From positions 1 through 42,371 of the forward strand of contig JAOADD010000064.1 in NCBI GenBank assembly GCA_026417495.1: a DNA stretch of 42,371 nucleotides. Reading direction: 5' to 3'. The DNA comes from Ignavibacteria bacterium (GTDB lineage: Bacteria > Bacteroidota > Ignavibacteria > Tepidaquicellales > Tepidaquicellaceae). The position numbers were made by a program, and so were the translations under genes. Below the pieces are notes generated by a model that was given only the letters and a program-made list of their open reading frames with translations, had not been told where the DNA came from and ran no database searches. Position 1 is the first letter of the stretch; the number at the start of each line of letters is the position of its first letter. Of the stretch, positions 21,231-24,482 are shown piece after piece.

Positions 21231-21821
21231 TTATTTCAACGCTTCAAATACCTGAACCTGTAAAGTTAAATTTTTCCATTCGTCTGATGGTAGACCTGCT
21301 TTTCGGCATAAAGATGAAATAAATTCTTCTGGACTTGTGAAATGCTCCCATACTTGTGGCAAATATACGGCAGTGAAGAAAGATTTCTTTATAATTACTC
21401 CCTTACCCTTTATTTGACTTAATAAATCTTTTGAAGATTTATACTTTATTTCTTTTGGTTCAGAGAGAACTGTAACTTCATATGTTAAATTTTTCAATTC
21501 ATCCTTTGTAACAGGATAAAACCTTGGATCACGAACTGCAGCACCAACAGCATTTTCAATTATTGATTTATATAATGGATTATGTGGAATAATTGTTCCT
21601 ATACAACCGCGTAACTCACCATTCTTTCTAATTGTAACAAAACATGCATGCCACTGTTTTAGCTTTTCAGGAATTTCAGAGATGTTATACTCTTGCATTA
21701 TAAAATCATCACTGCCTAAATTATATTCTCCATCACTTGCTCTACCCGTTAGTACAAATTGTTCTACAGCATTGCGTGCGATAGATTTCATTAATTGTTG
21801 TTCTTCCTTTGTGAAGTACAT
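21231..21821 (-). CDS. AmmeMemoRadiSam system protein A (AMMECR1 domain)
   Basis: The 196-residue protein is a single AMMECR1 domain. The hallmark ELRGCIGTI motif is near residue 75. NAVGAAVRDPRFYPVT and the ITVLSEP-like YEVTVLSEPKEI strand follow. QVWEHFTSPEEFISSLCRKAG, the usual C-terminal signature, is also present. It is the last gene of the four-gene - strand operon with the MEMO1-like and radical SAM proteins. The human homologue is linked to Alport syndrome with mental retardation. The biochemical role in bacteria is not established to my knowledge; a joint oxidative or radical reaction is inferred from co-occurrence. Confidence 0.9.
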   Translation of the reverse strand: MYFTKEEQQLMKSIARNAVEQFVLTGRASDGEYNLGSDDFIMQEYNISEIPEKLKQWHACFVTIRKNGELRGCIGTIIPHNPLYKSIIENAVGAAVRDPRFYPVTKDELKNLTYEVTVLSEPKEIKYKSSKDLLSQIKGKGVIIKKSFFTAVYLPQVWEHFTSPEEFISSLCRKAGLPSDEWKNLTLQVQVFEALK

Positions 21822-21846
21822 TGGTTAAGTAGAAGTTTATGGAATT

Positions 21847-22620
21847 TTAGTAAAATATTATTGAAGCATAGCCTACAACTCTGTTCTTATCACCAGAAAT
21901 ATCTCCACTGTTTTTATATATTAATAATTCTGGTGTCCACTTAAGAATTTTACAAATATTAATTAGAGTCATTACTGCATAAGGAGAATCTATTTCAAGT
22001 TCAGGGACAGAACTTTCATCTAAAGAAATAATTGTATCAATGGTTTTTTTATCAAGCTTTATAGCTTCATTATAAGTATAAAAATGGCTCAGGTCTACAG
22101 ATACTACAACTACTGTATTTTTATCGATATAACTTATCAATTTATTAGCAAGCCATTTTGAGTCAACATCCCCAACAAGAAGAGGAACTATTTCGAAATC
22201 CTTTAAACAATATTTTAAAAACGGTAGTTCAATTTCAATTGAATGTTCATACGTATCTGCTTCAGGAACAAACTCTGCAATTCCTTTTGAAATTAAATCT
22301 TTTACATCATTGCTAACCTTTATGTTTCCTAATGGTGTTTCTAGATATTCGTAGTCAAGAGCACATACCCCCTTCATATAATAATGGTGCATCGTTCCCA
22401 TTATAATAATCTTTTTTGTGACAGCAGGAAGTTGTTTAAAGGAATATGCGGCAACCTGTCCAGAATACATATAACCAGCATGAGGTACTATCACTGCTTT
22501 AACGGTTTTTCCCAAATATTTTACATTTTTGAGATATAATCTCAATTCTTCTTGTAATTCGTAAGGATCTCTTTCATACCAACTTCCAGCGCAGATTGCT
22601 TTTCTTATACTACTTTTCAT
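21847..22620 (-). CDS. AmmeMemoRadiSam system protein B (MEMO1-like)
   Basis: MEMO1 proteins share the fold of class III extradiol dioxygenases. Visible family features in the 257-residue product are IVPHAGYMYSGQVAAY with metal-ligand His47, GTMHHYYMKGV with His78/79, the EHSIEIELPFLKY motif and VDLSHFYTYNEA. The third metal position should lie near the C-terminus (NRVVGYASIIFY). It is 20 bp downstream of the radical SAM gene and 25 bp upstream of the AMMECR1 gene. Metal-dependent redox chemistry is likely; the substrate is unknown. Confidence 0.9.
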   Translation of the reverse strand: MKSSIRKAICAGSWYERDPYELQEELRLYLKNVKYLGKTVKAVIVPHAGYMYSGQVAAYSFKQLPAVTKKIIIMGTMHHYYMKGVCALDYEYLETPLGNIKVSNDVKDLISKGIAEFVPEADTYEHSIEIELPFLKYCLKDFEIVPLLVGDVDSKWLANKLISYIDKNTVVVVSVDLSHFYTYNEAIKLDKKTIDTIISLDESSVPELEIDSPYAVMTLINICKILKWTPELLIYKNSGDISGDKNRVVGYASIIFY

Positions 22621-22640
22621 ATTTTATAATGTGTTTAAAA

Positions 22641-23528
22641 TTAAACATTGCCTAAATAAACATTTTTAAGTTGTAACTTTGCAATATCATAAAAATCTTT
22701 CATAAGTTTATATGGTGTTGGTTTAAAGTATAATTTATAATGCGGAAAAGCTCTAGAAATGTGAAGTACAATGTTCTCATCAAGCGATTTTAAAAATTTA
22801 CACATTTCTAGAAATTCTTGTTTGTTATCGTTGAAATTTTCTATTAAAAGAAAAGTAACCTCAATATGTTTTTTTTCTTCTACTATAATTTTTATTGTGT
22901 TTTTAGTTGTTTCTAAGTTTCCATTGCAAATTCTTTTATAAAAATTTTCATTGAATGCTTTTAAATCTATATTAAAAGCGTCAATATATGGGAGTAAATT
23001 TCTAAGAGGCGCTTCGTTAATTTGACCATTTGAAACAACCACAGTTTTGATTTCATGCCCATCTTCAGGATTTTTGCAAAGTTTTGCTATATCCATCATA
23101 TACTCATAAAATATTGTAGGTTCATTATATGTGAAAGCAAGAAATTCTAACTCGTAGTGCTTGCACATTTTTACCACTTCCGCAGGAGTAAAGTATCTAA
23201 TTTCTTCTAGAGTTTCCAGATCTTCTGTTGGGTCAAATTGACTTATATCATAGTTTTGACAGAATCTACAACTTAAATTGCAACCAAATGTACCAATTGA
23301 AAATATTTTTGAACCTGGATAAAAATGGTACAAAGGTTTTTTCTCAATTGGATCTATATGTATTGCAATTGGTCTTCCATAGACAAGAGAAATAAGTTTA
23401 CCACCAATATTTTTTCTAACCCCACAAGTTCCAGTTTTGCCATCAACAATTACACACTCCTTTGGGCACAGTAAGCACTTTACCCTTCCTACTTCATCTA
23501 ATTTATTATAGTAACTTGCTTCTTGCAT
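22641..23528 (-). CDS. AmmeMemoRadiSam system radical SAM enzyme
   Basis: The 295-residue protein carries the SAM-cluster motif Cys83-x3-Cys87-x2-Cys90 (GCNLSCRFCQN). An extra N-terminal cysteine group (Cys18, 21, 25 and 35, in CLLCPKEC and GTCGVR) suggests a second metal site. FTYNEPTIFYEY, the TVVVSNG strand and IDAFNIDLKAF are typical of this pyruvate-formate-lyase-activase-like subfamily. Related radical SAM proteins form glycyl radicals, but no glycyl radical enzyme is nearby. It is the second gene of the operon. Confidence 0.92.
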   Translation of the reverse strand: MQEASYYNKLDEVGRVKCLLCPKECVIVDGKTGTCGVRKNIGGKLISLVYGRPIAIHIDPIEKKPLYHFYPGSKIFSIGTFGCNLSCRFCQNYDISQFDPTEDLETLEEIRYFTPAEVVKMCKHYELEFLAFTYNEPTIFYEYMMDIAKLCKNPEDGHEIKTVVVSNGQINEAPLRNLLPYIDAFNIDLKAFNENFYKRICNGNLETTKNTIKIIVEEKKHIEVTFLLIENFNDNKQEFLEMCKFLKSLDENIVLHISRAFPHYKLYFKPTPYKLMKDFYDIAKLQLKNVYLGNV

Positions 23529-23543
23529 TTTACTTTATATAAA

Positions 23544-24482
23544 TTAAAACTTTAATTTGAAACCTTGTTCATAAACATTACTTTCCGTGATTAATTTTGT
23601 TATAAACTCGTTTGGAATACTTTCAAAATAATAGTTTTCTATATTAAATTTATGAACGGAAGCTCCTGAAATAATTTCAGAAATTGGTTTTTTATTTTCA
23701 GGCCTAATATAATCTGTAGAAGAAATTTTTCTACTGTCAGTAATTACATAGAAAGGAATTTTAAAGGTTCTACAACCAATTGCAATTGCTTCAGTTCCAA
23801 CCTTGTTTATAAAATAATCAGGATACACACTATCACACCCCATTAACACAAAGTCAACTTTTGCCAGATATTTTATTGCAGCAGCATCTATAATGTATGT
23901 TACTTTAAACCCAAGAGAGGAAATATAATCTGCTTGAACTCTACCTTCGCATTTAGGTCTAGATTCTGTTTGTATTATCTCTACAGGAATAGACTGAGTT
24001 CTAATGTAGTTAAACAAATGCCTAACAGTACTGCTATTACTATGAAGAAGAACGGTCTTATCTGCAAAATCAATATTTCTTAAAGTATTAACAGCAATTC
24101 TGTCATTAACGCTAATCCATGTTTTAATATAGTTTTCTACTCTTTGTAAAAGGAAGTCCTTTAAAGAAATTTTAAAGTCAAATCCATGCTTTTTGGAATC
24201 AATTAACTTAGTAAAGTAAGAATCACAAGCATTCATTATTTCTAAATTAAAATGGCGCAGTAGAGCAAACTGATTATGCGATTCTAATAGTCCTCTAAAA
24301 TCATATTTTATTATTTTGAATAATGCTTCATCAGATAAAGAGTCCAAGTCTTTAGAATTAGATAGAAAATCTTTAAACAAAACCAGAAAGTCATTTAACA
24401 CTTTTTGAGAACCTGAATATTTATCTTTTTTGATTAATTTTAATTCCTCATGGAATTCATTTATGCTATTAATACCTTTCAT
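23544..24482 (-). CDS. eIF2B-alpha/MtnA-superfamily protein
   Basis: The C-terminal two thirds of this 312-residue protein match the IF-2B Rossmann fold: VLLHSNSSTVRHLF (143-156), ETQTESRP-like IQTESRPKCEGR, DFVLMGCDSVYPDYFINKVGT and IPFYVITDSRK. Asp217 corresponds to the catalytic Asp of isomerase members. At the catalytic Cys position of MtnA and ribose-1,5-bisphosphate isomerase there appears to be Ser148. This suggests a regulatory or altered-activity member rather than a standard isomerase. The first 120 residues are helical. It heads the AmmeMemoRadiSam operon, 15 bp upstream of the radical SAM gene. The family call is good; the function is unknown. Confidence 0.78.
   Translation of the reverse strand: MKGINSINEFHEELKLIKKDKYSGSQKVLNDFLVLFKDFLSNSKDLDSLSDEALFKIIKYDFRGLLESHNQFALLRHFNLEIMNACDSYFTKLIDSKKHGFDFKISLKDFLLQRVENYIKTWISVNDRIAVNTLRNIDFADKTVLLHSNSSTVRHLFNYIRTQSIPVEIIQTESRPKCEGRVQADYISSLGFKVTYIIDAAAIKYLAKVDFVLMGCDSVYPDYFINKVGTEAIAIGCRTFKIPFYVITDSRKISSTDYIRPENKKPISEIISGASVHKFNIENYYFESIPNEFITKLITESNVYEQGFKLKF

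Follow-up and report, generated by a model that had tools for sequence, protein, structure and literature searches.

An IF-2B-like gene of the Ser/Glu type precedes the AmmeMemoRadiSam triad in one genus of Ignavibacteria

The AmmeMemoRadiSam triad is a known set of three genes that is still poorly understood. Because human relatives of the triad, MEMO1 and AMMECR1, are proteins of unclear primary function, any genuine fourth partner would be a clue worth having. In the genus described here the triad is preceded by a gene of the IF-2B family, whose closest described relatives are ribose-1,5-bisphosphate (R15P) isomerase, eIF2B-alpha, and the archaeal protein PH0440. In the Pyrococcus R15P isomerase, R22, R65, and Q166 grip the 1-phosphate, and the C135S mutant is inactive, yet binds R15P with a Kd of 13.8 uM (PMC5789824). 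In eIF2B-alpha, neither the Cys of catalysis nor the residues for the 1-phosphate remain, while the site for the 5-phosphate and the sugar is kept (PMC5789824). This ancestral pocket is occupied by sugar phosphates, which activate eIF2B, and in human eIF2B-alpha Glu198 replaces the Asp of the second catalytic position (PMC8187479). The archaeal PH0440-type protein has merely been postulated as an aIF2B subunit (PMC5789824).

The stretch of DNA analysed here (the window; 42,371 nucleotides) is contig JAOADD010000064.1 of an Ignavibacteria bacterium. Four genes run on the minus strand from 24482 to 21231, in the order IF-2B family protein, AmmeMemoRadiSam radical SAM enzyme, protein B (MEMO), and protein A (AMMECR1), with intergenic gaps of 15, 20, and 25 bp. 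The order, the gaps of 15–25 bp, and the IF-2B superfamily gene at the head had all been given in a preliminary description and are borne out, the open reading frames having exactly the extents described there. The first gene (23544–24482, minus strand) encodes a protein of 312 aa of the Ser/Glu type explained below, which matches PF01008 with 109.7 bits (E 2e-31), above the Pfam gathering score of 22.4. The second (22641–23528, minus strand) encodes a short form of the radical SAM enzyme (295 aa), identified by its Cys columns and by TIGR04337 (265 bits; curated NCBIfam cut-off, 220). The MEMO-like protein B (257 aa; 21847–22620, minus strand) reaches 223 bits against TIGR04336 (cut-off, 26) and matches human MEMO1 structures (E 4e-23), and the AMMECR1-type protein A (196 aa; 21231–21821, minus strand) reaches 183 bits against TIGR04335 (cut-off, 99) and matches 1zq7 (E 1e-25). 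Thus, A, B, and the radical SAM protein all lie above the curated NCBIfam cut-offs and in one cluster, as in the AmmeMemoRadiSam system, whereas the cluster of the window is headed by the IF-2B-like gene. The cluster has a divergent gene for an M64 peptidase upstream of it and converges at its downstream end with uvrC. The four genes form a compact co-directional cluster that is probably expressed as one transcript, and their order is probably that of a lineage-specific operon.

Another difference from the described system lies in the radical SAM protein itself. A C-terminal CxxC-CxxC pair is found in 48 of the 57 family members compared and is missing from the window protein and from its taxonomic family as sampled; the pair is a feature of most members rather than a defining one, and the short form is still over the TIGR04337 cut-off. 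The CxxxCxxC motif is invariant in 57/57. So is an N-terminal cluster, C18, C21, C25, and C35, in the same members, the window protein included; the preliminary description had correctly noticed this cluster but had called it extra, and its invariance shows that it is nothing extra. All genomes examined from the taxonomic family of the window (five beyond the window) have the triad as a cluster. Furthermore, MEMO and AMMECR1 form a single continuous open reading frame in three related genomes of this family (L080:9782-11131, L081:8634-9950, and L083:1245-2567), which supports a partnership between A and B, whereas IF-2B is fused to something else, as will be seen below. The radical SAM gene of the sister genus comes after a gene for a DPP IV-like peptidase (L079:6023-9882 and L082:2973-6827), and a gene for an M15-like carboxypeptidase sits between the radical SAM and MEMO genes.

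The IF-2B-like protein yielded a confident AlphaFold2 model (pLDDT 93.5). The best match obtained via a structure search was PH0440 of Pyrococcus horikoshii (1vb5; Z 30.7), and R15P isomerases were found at Z of about 30, all of these matches extending over nearly the full length. With PH0440 it has in common the fold, the best profile match, and a Ser/Glu/Lys signature in the alignment; the two differ in that the structural alignment has only 21% identity and that the window protein is bacterial and diverged in its N-terminal domain. Compared with R15P isomerase (PH0208, TkR15Pi), both the fold and the residues for the sugar and the 5-phosphate are shared: Ser137, Asp204, Asn214, Lys215, and Lys240 of the isomerase correspond to Ser150, Asp217, Asn226, Lys227, and Lys252. 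The catalytic Cys and the contacts to the 1-phosphate are different. Ser148 (codon at 24041–24039, minus strand) aligns with the catalytic Cys135, in agreement with the preliminary description, which had placed it at the isomerase Cys; Arg22 and Gln166 are replaced by Ser23 and Glu179, and Arg65 is aligned with a His in the consensus of the Ser-type group. S148 and E179 are found in 51/51 distinct Ser-type sequences, and S150, D217, N226, K227, and K252 in nearly all of them, while R, C, and Q occupy positions 23, 148, and 179 in eight MtnA controls taken from related genomes. Ser148 is common to every examined member of the broad IF-2B subgroup, whether the triad is nearby or not.

Two enzyme identities were accordingly rejected. 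As an R15P isomerase the protein scores 84 bits, against a TIGR00511 cut-off of 314, and carries Ser148, Ser23, and Glu179; as an MtnA methylthioribose-1-phosphate isomerase it scores 43 bits, against a cut-off of 279, and has no catalytic Cys. A separate member of the IF-2B family is encoded in the same genome by an open frame of 377 aa. eIF2B-alpha resembles the window protein in fold and in the site for the sugar and 5-phosphate, and both lack the catalytic Cys along with the residues for the 1-phosphate; the window protein differs in being bacterial and in retaining Asp at the second catalytic position. Bacteria are not known to have eIF2 or an eIF2B catalytic partner.

From these residues, the IF-2B-like protein is most likely a non-catalytic sugar-phosphate-binding protein that lies in different operons in different lineages. 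It belongs to a widespread PH0440-like Ser/Glu group whose members no longer have the Cys for catalysis or the residues that grip the 1-phosphate, but still have a pocket for a 5-phosphorylated sugar. A sugar (or nucleoside) monophosphate would be bound without isomerisation, as by eIF2B-alpha, and the bound metabolite would be reported to a partner in a signalling role. In the genus, the gene has come to precede the triad; now that it lies in front of it, its expression is probably coupled to that of the triad. We hold this reading as a whole, namely a non-catalytic sugar-phosphate binder with a genus-specific placement before the triad and without being an obligate part of it, to be reasonably probable. 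The preliminary description had proposed that the protein may bind or make a sugar-phosphate or nucleotide substrate or regulator for the redox pair: binding without isomerising fits both the residues and the C135S data, while the role in the triad is not supported, for reasons given below.

Ser148 could, however, support another reaction. The protein might be an active enzyme with altered chemistry, such as an isomerase or lyase of a sugar monophosphate that uses Asp217 and Ser148 for catalysis: the residues with counterparts in contact with the sugar (Asp217, Asn226, and Lys227) are retained throughout, and a fusion to a SLOG domain in the sister genus and HisA-like and PdxT (SNO) neighbors elsewhere would suit phosphoribosyl metabolism. 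We consider such an enzyme unlikely, since the Cys-to-Ser change abolishes R15P isomerase activity (PMC5789824) and no alternative candidate for the acid/base was found.

How far the adjacency of IF-2B and the triad reaches bears on the proposal of a fourth component. The same four-gene order is found in the three sampled genomes of the genus, with gaps of 15, 6, and 409 bp between the IF-2B and radical SAM genes, and among named genomes that of Ignavibacteria bacterium Ch128a (CP054675.1) is the closest to share the cluster. IF-2B relatives were found at 14 loci in a scan of GTDB contigs, and the triad, sought within 8 kb or within the contig where this was shorter, accompanies only the locus of Ch128a. 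No further adjacent pair of IF-2B and radical SAM genes occurs among the matches listed for the class sample (197 genomes) or among those listed for the phylum sample (296 genomes), as judged by comparing the listed positions. Conversely, outside the window only two of the 59 radical SAM loci, most of them with flanks of only 1.5 kb, have an IF-2B gene, and both belong to the same genus. Four genomes of the sister genus have the IF-2B orthologue, on contigs other than those of the radical SAM gene, and in other genera of the taxonomic family the triad cluster is present with no IF-2B gene beside it. Recurrent linkage was thus seen in the samples within the genus only, not beyond this one lineage.

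Even within the genus, the order may have little functional meaning. Synteny between the three genomes extends from dnaA past uvrC as far as IF-2B, so that they are not independent cases, and the gap of 409 bp in the third genome (L075:15190-15600) holds repeated motifs (gattgaaagattgaagatt and similar). Both observations would suit a frozen neighborhood in which the IF-2B-like gene lies upstream by chance, an explanation that is possible but less probable, because the other two genomes have gaps of 6 and 15 bp, which suggest co-transcription. The IF-2B proteins of the linked genomes are mutually only 57–80% identical, and linkage kept despite this divergence could mean a useful association in the genus.

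Co-occurrence was compared at two levels. In the class, a radical SAM gene over the cut-off is found in 71 of the 74 genomes with a Ser-type IF-2B vs. 47 of the 123 without such a gene (Fisher p 7e-18, uncorrected for phylogeny); these counts were made by hand from tables, with six matches set aside as MtnA-like by aligned range and length. Almost all of the contrast lies between families, which mostly have both genes or neither. A separate test in a second phylum, Calditrichota, reached through a Calditrichaceae genome, gave Ser-type IF-2B in 27/29 genomes with the radical SAM gene vs. 10/11 without it (p 1.0). The Ser/Glu signature is present in all ten Calditrichota IF-2B proteins checked, three of which come from genomes that lack the radical SAM gene. 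Co-occurrence as a sign of dependence, strong in the class, vanishes here and was rejected; the IF-2B protein is thus independent of the triad.

In other lineages the Ser-type IF-2B gene keeps other company. Its neighbors vary: one family has a gene for a universal stress protein there, a second has one for a DnaQ/GIY-YIG protein, and a third a sigma factor gene. In many Calditrichota, a CutA1 gene comes first and overlaps the IF-2B gene by about 17 bp (e.g., L197:5361-5678, L106:7116-7442, and L195:3981-4298). The sister genus presents a fusion: IF-2B follows a cpYpsA (SLOG) domain in all three complete genes (L076:7727-9082, L077:8746-10056, and L063:1309-2673), the arrangement being confirmed with Pfam in two and seen in the third. 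At 39 of 61 IF-2B loci, some genomes being counted twice, the gene just before runs in the same direction at a distance of no more than about 30 bp. Such varied and tightly coupled neighbors suit a generic module better than a subunit of the triad.

The preliminary description had suggested that the IF-2B-like protein may be a fourth component. As such, it would bind or supply a sugar-phosphate or nucleotide ligand for the triad, at least in the genus. The co-directional packing at 6–15 bp in two genomes, the order repeated in the third, and the co-occurrence in the class would speak for it. Nevertheless, it is very unlikely, considering the scarcity of IF-2B at radical SAM loci outside the window, the Calditrichota genomes that keep IF-2B without the radical SAM gene, the cpYpsA fusion away from the triad in the sister genus, and a surrounding block that is syntenic anyway. 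A gene order restricted to one genus, together with unrelated neighbors elsewhere, means that the four proteins are probably not a four-part machine. All this is evidence against pursuing the IF-2B-like protein as a general partner of the triad.

The Ser/Glu-type IF-2B group is the more useful lead and a reasonable target in the study of sugar-phosphate sensing in bacteria; as these natural proteins share the Cys-to-Ser change of a laboratory mutant that binds but is inactive, such sensing would be easy to test. A bolder and rather improbable extension is that the Ser/Glu-type IF-2B is a general bacterial metabolite-sensing module, a counterpart of sensing by eIF2B-alpha, which would work with lineage-specific partners (Usp, CutA1, exonuclease/GIY-YIG, cpYpsA, and the triad) and would tune the triad to a sugar phosphate in the genus.

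Several minor observations concern these partners. Among the papers searched, none tied eIF2B, archaea, and CutA together and none on cpYpsA was found. The linkage of Ser-type IF-2B to CutA1 is more widespread than that to the triad, and in Calditrichota pdxT (SNO) sometimes precedes the CutA1–IF-2B pair. The cpYpsA–IF-2B fusion unites a domain for a nucleotide-type ligand with a sugar-phosphate domain. In one family of the class, genes for HisA-like, cyclic-nucleotide-binding, universal stress, and IF-2B-like proteins form a conserved cluster (L084–L087, L090, and L091).
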